From positions 1 to 27,194 of the IMG/VR virus record IMGVR_UViG_3300029286_000213: DNA of 27,194 nucleotides. One strand, written 5' to 3'. The number at the start of each line of letters is the position of its first letter. Within the stretch, counting starts at the first letter, position 1. The position numbers were made by a program, and so were the translations under genes. Source of the stretch: a virus. Below are positions 5,473 to 24,472 of this stretch, in pieces. A model generated the notes under the pieces. It made no database searches. It saw only the letters and a list, made by a program, of their open reading frames with translations, and was not told where the DNA came from.

Positions 5473-6001
5473 TTCATATTTAGAACCATATAACATAGCG
5501 TTAATTAACCCAAGTTTAGTTAAGAAAGTTTGTCCTGAGATTCCAAATTCAGTAGACGATGCTTTAATGGTTTCTTGGATTATAGATGTACAAGAGAGTT
5601 CGATTTTAAATTTACTTGGTTGTGATTTATATAGAGATATTGTTATTCAACAATCAGGTAATACATTCACAGCTGATAATAGATACTTATTTGATAGATT
5701 TATTGTTAGAATTTTAGCAAAAGGAGTTGTAATCAGAACTCTTTATTCAGCTTCGTATCAAATAGAGAACTTAGGTGTTAGAAAGAAAACAAGTGATCAA
5801 AGTGATTATGCAGATAAAGAAGAAATTAATTCTTTAAAACAACTATATCAGAACGATATTGAAAGATTGAGTAAAGATATGGTGTTGTATATGAATGAAA
5901 ATATTACGAAATACCCAGAATTTGAATCATCAAATTTTTGTGTACCTTGCGGAGCAAAGGATAGGCAAATTTTCAGCTCATTAAAAATATCTGGAATATA
6001 A
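5465..6001 (+). CDS. Probable head-tail connector (adaptor) protein
   Basis: A mostly helical 178-residue protein after the portal, where the adaptor that links portal ring to tail is normally found. The region PNSVDDALMVSWIIDVQESSILNLLG with LYRDIV resembles gp6-like adaptors that start with a multi-helix bundle. C-terminal CVPCGAK holds a CxxC pair. I chose ATG 5465 (MDNSYLEP), which overlaps the portal stop as ATGGATAA, over the in-frame ATG 5438 lying deeper inside portal. The gene ends in TAATG, shared with the next start. Family assignment is from position and helix pattern, not from a decisive motif. Confidence 0.6.
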   Translation: MDNSYLEPYNIALINPSLVKKVCPEIPNSVDDALMVSWIIDVQESSILNLLGCDLYRDIVIQQSGNTFTADNRYLFDRFIVRILAKGVVIRTLYSASYQIENLGVRKKTSDQSDYADKEEINSLKQLYQNDIERLSKDMVLYMNENITKYPEFESSNFCVPCGAKDRQIFSSLKISGI

Positions 6002-7150: not shown

Positions 7151-7341
7151 TGCCATTAGCAAAAAGAAAATCAGGAGAAGACAGAAATACCTTCGTTAGT
7201 CGTTGTATTAGAGAAGAAACTGCAAAAGCAAATAATATGACACACGAAATGATTGTAGCAGCCTGTGAAAATGCTGCTGATATGAGTACTGTATTTATGC
7301 CATTAGATGAGTATCTAGCGATGATAAAAAGTAAAAAATAA
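7150..7341 (+). CDS. Small conserved-type phage protein, unknown function
   Basis: The 63-residue product begins MPLAKRKSGEDRNTFVSRCI. This resembles a family of very short phage proteins starting MPLP with FISRC, often found among head genes, but the usual C-terminal part is replaced by a different helix (MTHEMIVAACENAADMSTVF). It is helical, with basic N- and C-termini. It is the last gene of the late block and lies 90 nt before a terminator. Its ATG is formed from the stop of the mini-ORF before it. Function is unknown even for the better matched relatives. Confidence 0.55.
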   Translation: MPLAKRKSGEDRNTFVSRCIREETAKANNMTHEMIVAACENAADMSTVFMPLDEYLAMIKSKK

Positions 7342-9018: not shown

Positions 9019-9055
9019 ATTTATGTTTTTTATATATAAACATAAAAACATAAAT
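9019..9055 (+). promoter_or_regulatory. Palindromic operator and promoter before the RHH gene
   Basis: A perfect 12-bp inverted repeat, ATTTATGTTTTT (9019-9030) and AAAAACATAAAT (9044-9055), frames TATATATAAACAT. It ends 1 nt before the ATG of the ribbon-helix-helix protein. Overlapping it is TTTTTATATATAA (9027-9039), a 13-mer also found before 13149 and 14045. Likely an autoregulated promoter. Confidence 0.65.
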
Positions 9056-9056
9056 T

Positions 9057-9311
9057 ATGAAAGAAAACGAAAAAATGTTTAGTTTAGTAGTATCACAAAA
9101 GCTTTACGATGAATTACGCTTATATGCGTTTCTAAAAGAAGAAAAATTATCTCAGTCTGTAAGAAGAATCGTCTCTGATTTTATCTCTGAAAACCTCCCT
9201 AAAATGTTAAAAGATTTTGATACGTTCAATAACAACGAATCAGATGTTATTTCAATTGAAAATCTTAATGAGGATTTTCCTGATAGATATCCAAAAGCAC
9301 CAAGAGGTTAG
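9057..9311 (+). CDS. Ribbon-helix-helix transcriptional regulator
   Basis: The 84-residue protein has the RHH layout: a short strand FSLVVS (8-13), helix KLYDELRLYAFLKEE (15-29), then LSQSVRRIVSDFISENL (31-47), where the SQSVRRIV segment begins the second helix that contacts the DNA backbone. The last 30 residues are acidic and disordered-looking, ending DRYPKAPRG. RHH dimers bind inverted repeats, and a 12-bp perfect inverted repeat lies directly upstream, so autorepression is likely. It lies before the replication genes and may time their expression. Alternatively it could be an antitoxin-like protein, but no toxin gene is adjacent. Confidence 0.7.
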   Translation: MKENEKMFSLVVSQKLYDELRLYAFLKEEKLSQSVRRIVSDFISENLPKMLKDFDTFNNNESDVISIENLNEDFPDRYPKAPRG

Positions 9312-12013: not shown

Positions 12014-12370
12014 ATGAAAAAGATTAAAAAAGAACCCTACAAGAATGAATATGACTACATTAGACATAAATTCATGAATGAATTACCAAATTATTCTGAA
12101 GTCTTTTTGTTTAAAGAAGGCAATAGAATCTACTTTACAGACGAATTAAGTACTTGGTCTATCTCAACTATTAAAAGAAATAAATACGATTCCGTTGTTT
12201 CAATTGACTTTGGACTAAACGAAAGACAAACCCGTTTCTTTCAATACAATAATCAAGATATCTACAAATATCGTAAATCAGGGACCGAAAGTAAAGATGA
12301 ACTCTATGACTTCGAAGAATATCTTAAAAAAATAAATGAAAAAGAAAGTGACGACTTCTGGGAATCTTAA
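12014..12370 (+). CDS. Small protein with acidic DFW tail, unknown function
   Basis: The 118-residue protein has a basic N-terminus (MKKIKKEPYKNEYDYIRHKF), a central beta-rich part (YSEVFLFKEGNRIYFTDELSTWSIST) and a highly acidic C-terminus ending KESDDFWES. The same kind of ending (EEDFWNS) closes the DNA methyltransferase at 15827, and the gene-end nucleotides are similar as well. An acidic tail with aromatic residues suggests docking to a replication or transcription partner, as in SSB tails, but the partner is unknown. It runs head-on into the sigma gene on the other strand, overlapping by 4 nt with no terminator seen between them. No known family was recognised. Confidence 0.5.
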   Translation: MKKIKKEPYKNEYDYIRHKFMNELPNYSEVFLFKEGNRIYFTDELSTWSISTIKRNKYDSVVSIDFGLNERQTRFFQYNNQDIYKYRKSGTESKDELYDFEEYLKKINEKESDDFWES

Positions 12371-12738
12371 AAATTATAATACCAGTCAATAGAAATTACT
12401 TTAATACCTTGAAGTTTCTGGTGATATTTCTTATTGTTAATCAAATTAGCACCATCCGCAAGCCCTCTTTTTAAGATTTCAGTTACATAAGGAAGTGCTT
12501 GTTTATATTTAAGTGGATTAAATCCATACCAATTCTTAAATAAATGTAATACCGATTGTTGATAACAATCCATCTGATCGTCATAACTTCTAAACTTTAA
12601 CTTGTGAATAACATTATCTGCAATTAATACAAACTGCCTTTCAGCTTTTCTAGTAAGCTTTCCTTTGCCCTTCGAAAGGACTAATTCATAATATAAATCA
12701 ACTTCTTTAATATAGTTTGTGTTTTTCTTAGTAACCAT
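12367..12738 (-). CDS. Late-transcription sigma factor, T4 gp55-like
   Basis: The 123-residue protein has the layout of the gp55 family of minimal sigma factors, which recruit host RNA polymerase to late promoters. Seen: YYELVLSKGKGKLTRKAERQ (16-35), IADNVIHKLKFRSYDDQMDCYQQ (39-61), LFKNWYGFNPLKYKQALPYVTEI (66-88) and LKRGLADGANLI (89-100). The segment from DDQMDC through the FNP and A-PYVTEI parts corresponds to sigma region 2, which binds the polymerase clamp and the -10 DNA. Region 4 is absent, as in gp55. It is the only gene on the minus strand, placed between early and late blocks. It would be copied from a separate promoter in 12739-13148. Call by pattern recognition; a profile search would settle it. 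Confidence 0.7.
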   Translation of the reverse strand: MVTKKNTNYIKEVDLYYELVLSKGKGKLTRKAERQFVLIADNVIHKLKFRSYDDQMDCYQQSVLHLFKNWYGFNPLKYKQALPYVTEILKRGLADGANLINNKKYHQKLQGIKVISIDWYYNF

Positions 12739-12836
12739 GTTATTAGGATTGTTTCTTTATTATATCCATTAAGAGTTTAAATGTCTAAAATAAAAAATAT
12801 ACACCAGGATCAATTCAATTACTACTTTTTATTATC

Positions 12837-12867
12837 GGTATGTAAATTGGATTAAGATCGATCCTGG
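12837..12867 (-). repeat. 31-nt inverted repeat, left copy
   Basis: On the minus strand it begins CCAGGATCGATCTTAATCC; the mate at 13891-13921 lies on the plus strand. The first 25 positions are identical and the last six differ at two. The core holds GATCGATC. With CCAGGATC at 12804 it also forms an imperfect local palindrome. Function may be packaging, regulation or a mobile-gene border. Confidence 0.9.
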
Positions 12868-12937
12868 CGCATCCCAATGCCCTAGAATTTGATTTTTTAA
12901 TTCATCCTTAATCAACCAAAAATTAAATACCTAAAAT

Positions 12938-12966
12938 AAAAAAAGCCCTACAAAATTGCAGGGCTT
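12938..12966 (-). terminator. Minus-strand terminator with no gene before it
   Basis: AAGCCCT (12943-12949) pairs with AGGGCTT (12960-12966); CAA/TTG inside extends the stem past one mismatch. The long T-run lies on the minus strand (A-run 12938-12944), so it stops leftward transcripts. Leftward RNA would have to start in 12967-13148 or be antisense to the HNH gene. Confidence 0.7.
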
Positions 12967-13119
12967 CTTAAAAAAAATAGTTAAACATTAGAACTGAACT
13001 GTAATTCAGCGAACATAATATTTAGTTTTTTAAACCCAAAATGTTTTTAAAAATTTTATAAAAAGTTTACCTTACAACCAATAACTTTTCCTTCCGACTG
13101 ATATTTTTTAACCTTTTCT

Positions 13120-13132
13120 TTTTTATATATAA
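13120..13132 (+). promoter_or_regulatory. Candidate phage promoter motif before HNH gene
   Basis: TTTTTATATATAA, identical to 9027-9039 and 13987-13999. It lies 17 nt before the HNH ATG, close to the 18 nt seen before the RHH gene. A shared 13-mer ahead of three genes suggests a promoter, perhaps read by the gp55-like sigma. In AT-rich DNA some chance matches are expected. Confidence 0.45.
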
Positions 13133-13148
13133 TAATAAAAAGAACATT

Positions 13149-13883
13149 ATGGAAAAAGAAAAATTAGATTTTGTACCACAAAGAAAAGGATCAACGTATA
13201 TTAAAATCAAATTACCAAACGGAAAATATGAAAATCTACACAGGTATTTATGGAAAGAAGCGAACGGTGAAATTCCAAAGGATTGTATTATCCACCACAT
13301 CAACGGAGACATACTAGATAATCGTTTAGAGAACTTACAATGTATGACGAGAGCAGAGCATTATAAAGTTCATAAAGAAGAAAAATTACAATCATCAGCT
13401 TATGAGTATTATTCTACTTATCAAAAACAATGGCAAAAAGATAATAAAGAAGAATGGAATGCCTATCAATTAAAGTATAAGAAAGACAACTACGATAGAT
13501 ATGCTACTTATCAAAAAGCAAATGCTAGAAAGTTTTATAATGAAAATAAAGAAGAAGCTCTAGCAGCAGCAAATGCTTACTATAAAGAAAACAGAGAAGC
13601 GATTCTTAAAAAGAATAAAGAGAAAAGAGAAAAAGCTCCACCATTAACAGAAGAAGAAAGATTAGCAAGATGTTTAAAGCAAAATACTTATTATAAAGAG
13701 CATAAAGAAGAAATAAATGAAAGAAGACGTGTAGGTATGACAGAAGAAAAGAGAGAGAAAGCAAGGGCAGCAGTTAAAGAGTGGGTCAAAAATAATCCAG
13801 AAAAATATAAAGAGTCAATGAAAAAATCTCAGGAAAAAATTAAAGCAAAAAGACAAGCTAAAAAATCAAATCCTAGCCTATAG
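13149..13883 (+). CDS. HNH endonuclease with long charged helical arm
   Basis: Residues about 30-80 form an HNH_3 type nuclease core: LHRYLWKEANGEIPKDC, then IIHHINGDILDNRLENLQCM and a final RAEHYKVHKE. The His-His pair (about 53-54), the Asn in DNRLENL and the last His are the likely catalytic and metal residues. The remaining 160 residues are repeated Lys/Glu/Tyr helices (YYKENREAILKKNKEKREK and similar), like those at 8486. Two roles are possible: a homing endonuclease spreading itself, or the HNH partner of terminase that helps cut packaged DNA in HK97-like phages. The gene lies directly before the terminases and between inverted repeats, so both fit. It has its own promoter motif and terminator. 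Confidence 0.85.
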   Translation: MEKEKLDFVPQRKGSTYIKIKLPNGKYENLHRYLWKEANGEIPKDCIIHHINGDILDNRLENLQCMTRAEHYKVHKEEKLQSSAYEYYSTYQKQWQKDNKEEWNAYQLKYKKDNYDRYATYQKANARKFYNENKEEALAAANAYYKENREAILKKNKEKREKAPPLTEEERLARCLKQNTYYKEHKEEINERRRVGMTEEKREKARAAVKEWVKNNPEKYKESMKKSQEKIKAKRQAKKSNPSL

Positions 13884-13890
13884 GTATCGT

Positions 13891-13921
13891 CCAGGATCGA
13901 TCTTAATCCAATTTAAGTACC
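13891..13921 (+). repeat. 31-nt inverted repeat, right copy
   Basis: Mate of 12837-12867 in opposite orientation, starting CCAGGATCGATCTTAATCC, with 29 of 31 positions equal. It begins 8 nt after the HNH stop and is followed by AATGCCCTAGA (13932-13942), which also follows the left copy at 12876-12886 in the same orientation. Confidence 0.9.
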
Positions 13922-13930
13922 AGAGTATCA

Positions 13931-13964
13931 AAATGCCCTAGATTAATTTCTAGGGCATTTTTTT
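13931..13964 (+). terminator. Terminator after HNH gene
   Basis: AAATGCCCTAGA (13931-13942) pairs perfectly with TCTAGGGCATTT (13949-13960) around a 6-nt loop, followed by more T to 13964. It isolates the HNH gene from the terminase operon, which then needs its own promoter. Confidence 0.9.
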
Positions 13965-14044: not shown

Positions 14045-14557
14045 ATGTCAAGACCCAAAGGCTCTAAGAACAAAATTCAAAAAGTTAAGCCACAACCACT
14101 TCCGGTTGGAGTACAGGCTAAATATAGAGCACATCCATTTTTAGGTAAATCAAAAGAAGATAGAGAAATTATATTAGGTAATGCTTTAATCAAAAATCGT
14201 GGATTATTTTCACACGCAGCGCAAGAATTACAAATTGATAATGCGACAGTTACTAAATTGGTACAAGAATCAGATTATTTAGCACATATTATAATTGAAA
14301 TTAGAGAAAAACTTAAAAGTGATATTCAAAGAGTAGGTGTAAATAGAGTTCTTGATAGCTCAAACCCAGAATTACAATACAAATACTGGAAAGAATTTAT
14401 TAAGAATAAAAATATGAAAGAGTTTGGTTGGGATAATACACCAGAATTACAGTTTACACAGAATAATCTTAAACAAGTTATAATGAACTTTCCTGAACCT
14501 ACTAATAAATTTGTGATTGAAGGTTTAGATTTTGATGAAAAATTATTAAATGAATGA
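14045..14557 (+). CDS. Terminase small subunit
   Basis: The small terminase recognises the packaging site and loads the large subunit. The 170-residue protein opens with a basic, Arg/Lys/Pro-rich arm (MSRPKGSKNKIQKVKPQP), then has a helix-turn-helix region, NRGLFSHAAQELQIDNATVTKLVQESDYL (about 51-79), the typical place for DNA binding, followed by an oligomerisation helix (IIEIREKLKSDIQRVGVNRV) and a loose C-terminal tail that would contact the large subunit. It overlaps the large terminase gene by 4 nt (ATGA). Position gives most of the confidence, since these proteins diverge fast. Confidence 0.75.
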   Translation: MSRPKGSKNKIQKVKPQPLPVGVQAKYRAHPFLGKSKEDREIILGNALIKNRGLFSHAAQELQIDNATVTKLVQESDYLAHIIIEIREKLKSDIQRVGVNRVLDSSNPELQYKYWKEFIKNKNMKEFGWDNTPELQFTQNNLKQVIMNFPEPTNKFVIEGLDFDEKLLNE

Positions 14558-15705
14558 ACTGTACTAACGTCTTCGTAAAGAATATAGAACAAATTAATAA
14601 AGGTAAGAAAATTATCTGTAATGAAGGCGGCTCAAGATCTTCAAAAACTTATAGTATTCTGCAAATATTTTTATGGTTTATGACGAAGACTAATAACAAA
14701 ACCTACACAGTTGTATCAGAAAGTTTGCCACACTTAAAGAGGGGAGCCTTAAAAGATTGGTTCGAAATCTTGAAAACAGATGATCTATACGAAGAAAAAG
14801 CCCATAATAAAACAGATAATAAATACACTTATAACTCAAATACAATTGAGTTTTTTGGAGTTGAAGAGTTTACAAAAGTTACAGGAGCAGGCAGAGATTT
14901 TCTATTTATCAATGAGTGTAACAATGTAAGTTGGAAAGTATTTCAACAGTTACAATTAAGAACAAAGAAGTATACATTCTTAGACTGGAATCCAACTTCT
15001 ACTTTTTGGTATCATGAATTTCTACAAGATCAAGATAATGTAGGTTATATTCATTCAACTTATTTAGATAACCCATACGTTTCTCAAAATACAATTGATC
15101 TTTTAAATAGTATGAAAGATAAAGACCCTAATTTCTATAAGGTTTATGCATTAGGATTAGTTGGTAATCTTGAAGGTTTAGTATTTAATTTTGATATTTC
15201 TGATTTTGAAGATAATCCAAAAAGAATATTTGGTTTAGACTTTGGTTATACCAACGATCCAACAACATTAGTTTCTGTTTATGAAAAAGATAAAGTATTA
15301 TATGTAGATGAATTACTTTATCAAGCAGGATTAACTAATCAAGATATATCAAGGCATCTAGAACAACTTGGGTTACAGAAACACAAAGATATTATCTATG
15401 CAGATTCAGCAGAACCTAAATCAATAGAAGAATTAAGTAGATTAGGTTGGGTAGTTAAGCCTTGTATAAAAGGTCCTGATTCAATTAGAAATGGTATTCA
15501 AGCAGTTAAGATGTATGATTTAAAAGTTTCAAGACGTTCAACTAATTTGATAAAGGAGTTGCGCAATTATCAATGGCAGAAAGATAAGGATGGTAAACCA
15601 ATCAATAATCCGATAGGTGTAGATCACGCTATTGATTCGTTAAGATATGCTGTTAGTAGTCATTATAGAGTTGAGAAAAGAAAAACAACCTGGTCAGTAG
15701 TATGA
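14554..15705 (+). CDS. Terminase large subunit, PBSX/terminase_3 type
   Basis: ATP-driven packaging motor with nuclease. The 383-residue chain has Walker A GGSRSSKT (25-32), Walker B and catalytic Glu in FLFINEC (116-122), coupling motif LDWNP (143-147), and the RNase H-like nuclease acids in GLDFGYTNDPT (227-237), YADSAEP (282-288) and DHAIDSLRY (357-365). All key residues are present and the length is a little short but normal for this subfamily. It starts inside the small terminase stop and its own stop overlaps a 42-codon frame. Portal is not next, as it would be in most relatives, but about 10 kb upstream in the window. Confidence 0.95.
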   Translation: MNCTNVFVKNIEQINKGKKIICNEGGSRSSKTYSILQIFLWFMTKTNNKTYTVVSESLPHLKRGALKDWFEILKTDDLYEEKAHNKTDNKYTYNSNTIEFFGVEEFTKVTGAGRDFLFINECNNVSWKVFQQLQLRTKKYTFLDWNPTSTFWYHEFLQDQDNVGYIHSTYLDNPYVSQNTIDLLNSMKDKDPNFYKVYALGLVGNLEGLVFNFDISDFEDNPKRIFGLDFGYTNDPTTLVSVYEKDKVLYVDELLYQAGLTNQDISRHLEQLGLQKHKDIIYADSAEPKSIEELSRLGWVVKPCIKGPDSIRNGIQAVKMYDLKVSRRSTNLIKELRNYQWQKDKDGKPINNPIGVDHAIDSLRYAVSSHYRVEKRKTTWSVV

Positions 15706-15830
15706 GATTAAAAACAATTTGGATTGAGGAGATTAACAAATTACTAAAAATGTTAGATAATGATGATTTAGAGAGAGTACTTGAAATTATAATAATGATG
15801 ATGTTAAATAAAAATAAAGATGAAGTTTGA
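15702..15830 (+). CDS. 42-residue helical small protein
   Basis: ATG 15702 overlaps the terminase stop as ATGA, and the frame of 42 codons ends at TGA 15828-15830, which in turn overlaps the TTG start of the methyltransferase as TTGA. The peptide (RLKTIWIEEINKLLKMLDND, then DLERVLEIIIMMM, ending KNKDEV) is an amphipathic helix pair with a Met/Ile-rich second helix. Exact coupling on both sides suggests it is translated. Function is unknown; a small regulator or assembly helper is possible. Confidence 0.55.
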   Translation: MRLKTIWIEEINKLLKMLDNDDLERVLEIIIMMMLNKNKDEV

Positions 15831-17383
15831 AAGATTTAAAAAATGCAGATGTATTAGAAGATATTAAAACATATCCAGATTTATTTATGGATATTATTTA
15901 TACTGACCCACCCTATAATCTAAGTTCTACTTGGTTTATTGATAAAGATGGTCAGTATAAGATTAAAAAAGCAAGTAAGGACTTCTTGAATAAGTGGAAT
16001 GGTTTAACAGAAGTTGAATTTGATATATTCTTTAATGAAAGTTTTAGAACATTAAAACACGGTGGATATTTAATAATGTATGGTTTAGATAGACAACTTG
16101 GACCATTTCATTATTATGCTGTTAAAAATGGATTTGAAGTGTGCCAATCGCTTTACTGGTTTTTTATGTCAAATTTTCCTAAGGCCACAGACGTTAGTAA
16201 GATGGTTGATAAAAGATTTAAATGTGAAAGGGAAGTTGTTGGTGTAAAAAAATATGCCGATGGTAGTAGTGGTAGAAAAACTTCTAAACTTTTTTCAGAT
16301 AAATTACTTGGTGGTCAAAGTATGGAAACAATTTCAACCCACCCAATAGCAAAAAAATATGAAGGTTATAAGTATTCAATTGCCCCATTAAAACAAGTAT
16401 TAGAAACGGTTATGGTCTTTCATAAACCATTAAAAGGTAAGTCGTATATTGATGATATAATCCAAAGTGAAAAAGATTGTGAAGTTCATAGTAGTTGTTT
16501 AAATATAGATGGTGAAAGGGTTGAATATAAAGATGAAGTTTTAGCAATAAGTAAATTGACTAATATGAAAGGTAAAGCAAATTATGGTCGTGAAGGTTTA
16601 ACAAATAAATTAGATAATGATTATATACCAAACGAAACTGGTAGATTTCCAAGTCAGTTATTAGTTGATGAAGGTGCTGCTTCTATAATTGATAATCAAA
16701 CTGGGATTAAAAAAGCAAATCCACAAGATGACAAATTATTTAACAAATCTTCTGATAATATAGATATTGGTGGTGGTTTTAAAACGGGTTATTCTGACAC
16801 TGGTGGTGGTTCAAAGATACTACACAAATGCGTTTATGAAACTGATGAAATTGATTTAATAAAGTATCAACCAAAAGTTTCTAAAAGTGAAAGAAATGCT
16901 GGGTTGGAAGGTTTTGAAAAGAAAGAAAGGGATTGGGTAAATGGTGGTGGATTAGAAAATGATCCTAAATGGCAAGGAAGCCCTACAGCCAACAATCATC
17001 CCACATTAAAACCCATAAGCCTTGGCAAACATATCTTAAACTTATTCAAGACCCCAAATCATACAAGAATATATATTCCTTTTTCTGGTAGTGGTTCAGA
17101 AGTTATAGCAGCAATACAAGTTGGTTATGATGAAGTTTATGCTTGTGAAATAAATGAAGAATATTGTAATTTAGCAGAAGCAAGGGTAAATTATTGGTGT
17201 AAGGATTTAATTTATGAAGATAAGGTGCCCTTGGTTGCGTCCAAAATTAAAATTGATAGTAAGCCTTTACCTAAAAAAAAGGTTGCGCCTAAACCAAAAA
17301 AATCCAAAGAAGTAGATTTGTTTGAAGTAGCAAAAACAATAATCGAAATTGAAGATTCAGAAGAAGATTTCTGGAACTCTTAA
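15827..17383 (+). CDS. DNA methyltransferase, beta class (N6-adenine or N4-cytosine)
   Basis: The 518-residue protein has the catalytic motif IV DPPY at residues 27-30 and the SAM-binding motif I as FSGSGS near 419-424, followed by YACEINEEYC. Catalytic motif before SAM motif defines the beta class. HPTLKPISLGKHIL lies just before the SAM motif, as in N6/N4 enzymes. The roughly 390 residues between hold the target-recognition part, including Gly-rich IGGGFKTGYSDTGGGS. The last 60 residues are a Lys/Pro linker and an acidic tail ending EEDFWNS. The start is a TTG with TTGA overlap; no ATG precedes DPPY closely. No restriction gene is near, so it probably guards phage DNA against host enzymes. 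Confidence 0.85.
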   Translation: MKDLKNADVLEDIKTYPDLFMDIIYTDPPYNLSSTWFIDKDGQYKIKKASKDFLNKWNGLTEVEFDIFFNESFRTLKHGGYLIMYGLDRQLGPFHYYAVKNGFEVCQSLYWFFMSNFPKATDVSKMVDKRFKCEREVVGVKKYADGSSGRKTSKLFSDKLLGGQSMETISTHPIAKKYEGYKYSIAPLKQVLETVMVFHKPLKGKSYIDDIIQSEKDCEVHSSCLNIDGERVEYKDEVLAISKLTNMKGKANYGREGLTNKLDNDYIPNETGRFPSQLLVDEGAASIIDNQTGIKKANPQDDKLFNKSSDNIDIGGGFKTGYSDTGGGSKILHKCVYETDEIDLIKYQPKVSKSERNAGLEGFEKKERDWVNGGGLENDPKWQGSPTANNHPTLKPISLGKHILNLFKTPNHTRIYIPFSGSGSEVIAAIQVGYDEVYACEINEEYCNLAEARVNYWCKDLIYEDKVPLVASKIKIDSKPLPKKKVAPKPKKSKEVDLFEVAKTIIEIEDSEEDFWNS

Positions 17384-23353: not shown

Positions 23354-24472
23354 ATGGCTCATAAATTTACTTATCTTCCTTATTATAGTACTTATGTAGC
23401 ACCAGTTGTACCAACTTGGTTAAAGATACCTATGAATAGTGGCCCAAATAATTCTGTTGTTTTGAAATCTAATGGCGCAGCTTATGCTTGGGGTTATGGT
23501 GGTTGGGGAACTTTAGGTAATAATTCAACAGCTAATAATGCAGTACCAGTATTAATATATGGTAGTCATACTTTTTGTACAATAAGTACAGGTTATATGA
23601 TGACTGGGATAGATAATCATGGTAAAGCTTGGGGTTGGGGATTAAATTCAAAGGGTCAAGTAGGTGATAATTCAATAACAAATAGAAGTATTCCAGTAGC
23701 AGTTTGTGGTGTACATACTTTTTGTGCAATTAGTTTTGGTGCTTCATCTTGGCATACTTTAATGTTAGATAAAAATAATAAAGTATGGGCTTGGGGTAAG
23801 AATGATAATGGACAATTAGGTAATAATTCATTAACTTCTGCTAGAACACCAATCGCAGTTTGTGGTAATCATACATTTCAAATAATGGCTACTGATGATT
23901 ATAATTCAGTTGCATTAGAAAACGGTAAAGCTTGGACTTGGGGTGATAACGCATCAGGTCAATTAGGTAATAATACAACGGGTAATACATCAACGCCAGT
24001 TGCAGTGTGTGGCAATCATACATTTTGTAAAATATCAGTTGGGGGTCAAAACTTTGTAGTAGCAATAGATAATCACGGTAAAGCTTATTCTTGGGGTAAT
24101 AATTTAGTAGGGCAATTAGGTGATGGAACAAAAGTAAGTAAACGAACACCGATTGCAGTTTATGGAACTAAAACCTTTTGTCATATTCATGCACAATATT
24201 TAAGAACATTAGCAATTGATAAAAATGGTAAAGGTTGGGGTTGGGGAACACAACCAAATGGTGCATTAGGTAATAATTCTATATCTGATTTTTGTACACC
24301 AGTTGCTATATGTGGTAATCATACATTTTGTTATATACAAGGAACTTCGCAAGGTGGTTTAGCAATTGATAAAAATAATAAATATTGGTCTTGGGGATAT
24401 AATACCAATAATGAACTAGGTAATAATAATACAACAAGTGTAAGAACGCCAATAGCAGTCTGTGTTATTTAA
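23354..24472 (+). CDS. RCC1-repeat seven-bladed beta-propeller protein (probable receptor binding)
   Basis: The 372-residue protein is almost entirely RCC1-type repeats. Aromatic-x-W-G signatures recur at 43-47, 92-96, 144-148, 193-197, 244-248, 294-298 and 344-348, spaced by about 50 residues, each followed by N-x-x-G-x-LGNN and TPVAVCGNHTFC. Seven units would close a seven-bladed propeller. Cys residues recur at the same place in most blades, unusual for a phage surface protein. The first 23 residues are a short anchor. ATG is directly after the fibre stop with no gap (23354). In phages, propellers on tails bind receptors or sugars; the exact ligand is unknown. This RCC1 fold is rare in phage compared with eukaryotes. 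Confidence 0.85.
   Translation: MAHKFTYLPYYSTYVAPVVPTWLKIPMNSGPNNSVVLKSNGAAYAWGYGGWGTLGNNSTANNAVPVLIYGSHTFCTISTGYMMTGIDNHGKAWGWGLNSKGQVGDNSITNRSIPVAVCGVHTFCAISFGASSWHTLMLDKNNKVWAWGKNDNGQLGNNSLTSARTPIAVCGNHTFQIMATDDYNSVALENGKAWTWGDNASGQLGNNTTGNTSTPVAVCGNHTFCKISVGGQNFVVAIDNHGKAYSWGNNLVGQLGDGTKVSKRTPIAVYGTKTFCHIHAQYLRTLAIDKNGKGWGWGTQPNGALGNNSISDFCTPVAICGNHTFCYIQGTSQGGLAIDKNNKYWSWGYNTNNELGNNNTTSVRTPIAVCVI

Follow-up and report, generated by a model that had tools for sequence, protein, structure and literature searches.

Homing genes of phages often adjoin the terminase genes or cluster near them (PMC10448857). Free-standing HNH homing genes of the HNH_3 family (PF13392) carry the HNH domain near the N-terminus and stand alone beside an essential late gene with a promoter motif of their own, and they are not conserved at that place in relatives. 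HNH genes of the HK97 gp74 type also lie directly before the terminase genes, and HK97-type HNH proteins act together with the cos terminase (PMC9410871; PMC10448857). In phage SPP1, the packaging site pac overlaps the late promoters and terS, and the right copy of the repeat described below likewise stands just upstream of a promoter-like motif before terS. Lastly, template switching between imperfect inverted repeats is known to homogenise the two arms (PMC8604942). Duplications of this quasipalindrome type consist of an inverted copy of a nearby short stretch, show a patchwork of blocks and have arms that are more alike than expected.

The locus that we describe resembles each of these systems in part. 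It lies in a stretch of viral DNA of 27,194 nt (positions 1 to 27,194 of IMG/VR record IMGVR_UViG_3300029286_000213), hereafter the window, where an HNH gene between a divergent late sigma gene and the terminase genes is bracketed by an inverted repeat (Table 1). The nearest named matches of the large terminase TerL, at about 40 %, come from Parabacteroides and Bacteroides phages, which points to a phage of the Bacteroidota host type. The sole PDB match of TerL is the nuclease of SPP1 gp2 (2wbn/2wc9), and we classify the enzyme from its sequence as SPP1-like, of the headful type.

Table 1. Features of the repeat locus and its neighbours, in window coordinates
Feature	Position	Strand	Remarks
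Late sigma transcription factor family gene, divergent	12367-12738	-	phrog_234, E 6e-5
Third, partial copy	12804-12826	+	CCAGGATC, 6-nt gap, AATTCAATT
Left copy of the 31-nt repeat	12837-12867	-	25 nt exact at 12843-12867
Full left arm	12837-12899	-	63 nt; matches the right arm at 52/63 positions
Second inverted block	12876-12887	-	12 nt, the same as 13948-13959 (+), the descending terminator arm of the HNH gene; the right arm has another sequence at the matching place
Intrinsic-terminator-like hairpin	12940-12969	-	between the left arm and the HNH gene
HNH promoter-like motif TTTTTATATATAA	13120-13132	+	29 nt before the ATG
HNH_3 endonuclease gene	13149-13883	+	244 aa; HNH domain aa 30-71; C-terminal part Lys/Glu-rich
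Full right arm	13859-13921	+	63 nt; its 5' 25 bases overlap the end of the HNH ORF
Right copy of the 31-nt repeat	13891-13921	+	25 nt exact at 13891-13915
HNH terminator hairpin AATGCCCTAGA-TTAATT-TCTAGGGCATT	13932-13959	+	strong; T run after
Small terminase gene (presumed terS)	14045-14557	+	assigned by position; weakly similar (28 %) to the gene that precedes terL in L006
Large terminase gene (terL)	14554-15705	+	Terminase_3/Terminase_3C

The repeat is real and statistically clear. As the initial annotation had claimed, two inverted 31-nt copies flank the HNH gene and agree at 29 of 31 positions. Their 25-nt exact block is the longest exact inverted repeat of the window (the runner-up has 18 nt), and in 20 first-order shuffles of the window the longest one measured 15-19 nt. 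The ungapped homology of the arms extends over 63 nt and has sharp ends, outside both of which identity is at background. Mismatches between the arms are clustered, with 25 of 25 identical positions beside a 14-nt stretch that holds 8 mismatches, and the inner halves of the arms are not identical. The right arm overlaps the HNH ORF by 25 bases, up to and including the stop codon, which ends at 13883, and the left arm lies in non-coding DNA. We also considered the arms as coding sequence and rejected this candidate: the frame KD[KE]LKNQIL..PGSILIQF can be read in both, and their differences are not concentrated at third positions. No homolog of the arm-encoded peptide was found with the 29-residue query, a length that gives little power.

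The annotation had also claimed that the left copy pairs with a sequence at 12804 and that each copy is followed by AATGCCCTAGA. The pairing holds, as a hairpin between the left copy and a gapped third copy (z of -3.8 and -4.9 on the two strands). This third copy matches over 8 nt exactly before its 6-nt gap, and its score against the core has a P of about 0.017 for a random 47-mer. AATGCCCTAGA is present at 12876-12886 and 13932-13942, on the plus strand at both places. At the left arm it is on the inner side, at the right arm on the outer one, and the repeat therefore does not include it symmetrically. The right-hand occurrence is the ascending arm of the HNH terminator hairpin. Beyond the three copies we found the core at no position of the window, and a DNA core pattern search of IMG/VR gave no match.

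The protein encoded between the arms scores 60.9 bits against PF13392 (HNH_3), above the curated cut-off of 24.8. Its domain near the N-terminus, its stand-alone position beside an essential late gene, its own promoter motif and its absence from the same place in relatives are shared with the phage homing genes of this family. The gene is most likely a free-standing homing endonuclease gene, probably a selfish one, and its function is probably homing. No Rfam match to a group I intron or structured RNA was found in the window at gathering scores, the region giving weak sub-threshold matches only, and a search for a solved structure related to the HNH protein found none. Other homing-type genes were seen in related phages: the ORF directly after terL in L006 (9158-9808) resembles, as read by eye, a GIY-YIG homing endonuclease, and a 35-nt inverted repeat on the same contig (G001) is produced by two paralogous HNH-motif genes on opposite strands. 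These genes suggest that homing-type genes are common in this phage group.

One proposal of the initial annotation was that the arms are the target-site borders of a homing gene. While homing endonuclease is the best reading of the gene itself, the part that concerns the borders does not stand. Among 81 HNH-containing ORFs, a set chosen by an HNH-motif pattern that includes a few long or secondary ORFs, the window has an inverted-flank score of 76 and the next ORF reaches 27; 330 control ORFs reach 32. None of the 80 other HNH-containing ORFs has arms like those of the window, and this 63-nt inverted duplication sets the gene apart from the other genes compared. Inverted borders are therefore not a property of the HNH family, and to our knowledge canonical homing does not yield inverted borders.

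The same comparison bears on the idea that the HNH gene travels within a mobile element, as one unit, whose terminal inverted repeats are the arms. The arms do enclose one complete gene with its own promoter motif, but besides the lack of arms at the 80 other ORFs, the window holds no second copy and the core does not occur in IMG/VR. By eye, we also see no target-site duplication where the arms end on the outside, at 12837 and 13921, and we know of no transposase that is an HNH_3 protein. We consider a mobile element very unlikely. Two near-identical inverted 31-nt arms 1 kb apart could also mark a segment that is flipped by recombination between them, as had been proposed. This possibility is disfavoured and in our view extremely improbable. 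No recombinase is present among the annotated genes of the 27 kb (the ORFs were partly scanned and the record is an incomplete contig), and the arms differ in their inner half. Moreover, a flip would change little, since the promoter motif of the HNH gene lies inside the segment and inversion would only aim the HNH gene at the sigma gene.

We compared 82 related terminase loci, including the window, each with at least 2.5 kb of upstream sequence; these relatives are all distant. An HNH gene within 2.5 kb upstream of terL occurs at one locus, the window itself, and is absent in the other 81. For inverted pairs upstream of terL the window scores 76, against 42 for the next of the 81 other loci, and no such repeat pair was found upstream of terS in L006, L009 and L010. 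We looked for close relatives in IMG/VR with TerL, TerS, the HNH protein, the late sigma protein and the DNA core, and in GTDB genomes and among named phages with TerL, and found none that are close. The nearest relative has 73 % TerL identity and an intergenic region in which no DNA can be aligned, so that no empty site can be read from it. The element is private, being seen at no related gene or phage that we examined. A different arrangement was noted in L010 (IMGVR_UViG_3300022555_000171), where a 60-nt palindromic element occurs twice (5864-5923 and 7180-7239, 83 % identical) and brackets the large terminase gene.

These results bear directly on the proposal that the repeats form a packaging site cut by the HNH protein plus terminase, as in the HK97-type cos phages. 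The position of the gene, directly before the terminase genes, is that of the HK97 gene (PMC10448857; PMC9410871 on gp74). The terminase, however, is of the Terminase_3/3C type and matches the headful enzyme of SPP1 rather than an HK97/cos enzyme, and at one locus in 82 an HNH gene is not conserved beside this terminase type. In addition, the assembly continues across the site and has its left end in the tape-measure gene, which is weak evidence against this explanation; exact terminal direct repeats of the contig were searched for and none were found. The data thus do not support a cos or pac site cut by HNH plus terminase, and we regard this as a quite improbable explanation.

The best reading of the repeat, to which we would give an even chance, is that a template switch in the course of phage replication produced a local inverted duplication. 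A homing-type HNH gene with its own promoter and terminator lies between the divergent late sigma gene and the terminase genes. About 63 nt, made up of the 3' end of this gene and its immediate downstream sequence, would have been copied mirror-wise to the other side of the gene by a polymerase that switched template during phage replication, possibly during break repair. The left copy would then be pieced together from three blocks of the right-hand region, all inverted. The repeat, its extent, its block structure and the gene families are observed, and both the template switching and its direction, from right to left, are what we infer; the left copy looks derived because the right arm holds the 3' end of the HNH ORF and the left arm is non-coding.

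The first of the three blocks is the 25-nt exact match. The second (12 nt, Table 1) corresponds to the terminator arm, and the third pairs 12887-12899 with 13859-13871 (13 nt) and abuts the second. The terminator-arm block is the weakest of them: it adds only about 7 nt to the CTAG that is already aligned, and a match of at least 12 nt turns up in about 15 % of simulated region pairs. That the homology forms a single 63-nt unit with sharp ends supports a duplication, and a patchwork and arms growing more alike are the outcome of template switching (PMC8604942). On the other hand, the clustering of the mismatches might also reflect selection on the core, one event does not account for the third partial copy at 12804, and a relative with an empty or ancestral site was not found among the relatives searched. 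The window also differs from quasipalindrome-type duplications in that 1 kb separates its arms, with a whole gene between them, and the ancestral sequence was not found. Similar scars are seen in two related phages: a perfect, template-switch-like 44-nt inverted repeat lies inside a tandemly duplicated gene of L010 (G003; 1431-1474 and 1703-1746), and in L009 roughly 110 bp are directly duplicated ahead of the small-terminase gene.

Alternatively, the core of 25-31 nt may be a binding site that is kept upstream of both divergent units, with the HNH gene inserted later. It could act on the late sigma gene and terS as an operator or activator site, or it could represent small-terminase (pac-like) sites that also regulate terS, comparable to those of SPP1 gp1. 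The two copies share their orientation relative to the downstream gene, the left one lying 98 nt before the ATG of the late sigma gene and the right one 123 nt before that of terS. The core is identical at 25/25 positions next to 14 nt with 8 mismatches, and the third copy forms its hairpin with the left one. The depletion of GATC throughout the window (41 against about 75-76 expected), yet with five GATC in the three copies, points the same way. A pac-like role would suit the SPP1-like TerL; in SPP1, pac overlaps the promoter region of the small terminase gene and its start, with pacL and pacR both bound by gp1 (PMC6316719). Core identity, orientation, the hairpin with the third copy and the SPP1 precedent together make a shared regulatory or pac-like site possible. 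Nevertheless, the homology extends 30 nt further into the HNH coding sequence, which binding would not need, the core has no further occurrence in the window or in IMG/VR, and L006, L009 and L010 are without such a pair upstream of terS. In contrast to SPP1 pac, moreover, the copies are inverted, 1 kb apart and placed around another gene, and binding by the small terminase is putative. We hold this explanation as tentative and on the unlikely side.

It is conceivable that the mirror-image 25-nt cores before the late sigma and terminase genes let one protein, for example the small terminase, couple late transcription to the start of packaging, and that a homing gene then settled between them; we find this doubtful. 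If the core were indeed a site shared by the late sigma and terminase genes, it would offer a handle on late gene control in the poorly studied phages of Bacteroidota.

Overall, the repeat probably represents either a copying scar that arose once or two local binding sites, and not a new device for packaging or switching. As an inverted duplication around an HNH gene of homing type it is private and ordinary in kind. Striking symmetry beside terminase genes can thus come from a private event, and the 80 HNH-containing ORFs and 81 terminase loci remove the packaging and mobile-element readings as general rules.

The promoter-like motif of the HNH gene, TTTTTATATATAA, occurs exactly at 9027, 13120 and 13987 of the window, in front of the gene at 9057, the HNH gene and terS at 14045, and may serve as a late promoter of the sigma factor whose gene lies beside the left arm. 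CATG (20 against 60 expected) and GAATTC (1 against 11 expected) are depleted in the window together with GATC, which looks like restriction avoidance, and an N6/N4 methyltransferase is encoded at 15827-17383. Further downstream, after a collagen-like fibre gene, the window carries a phage gene of RCC1 repeats (23354-24472; PF00415, E 7e-43).
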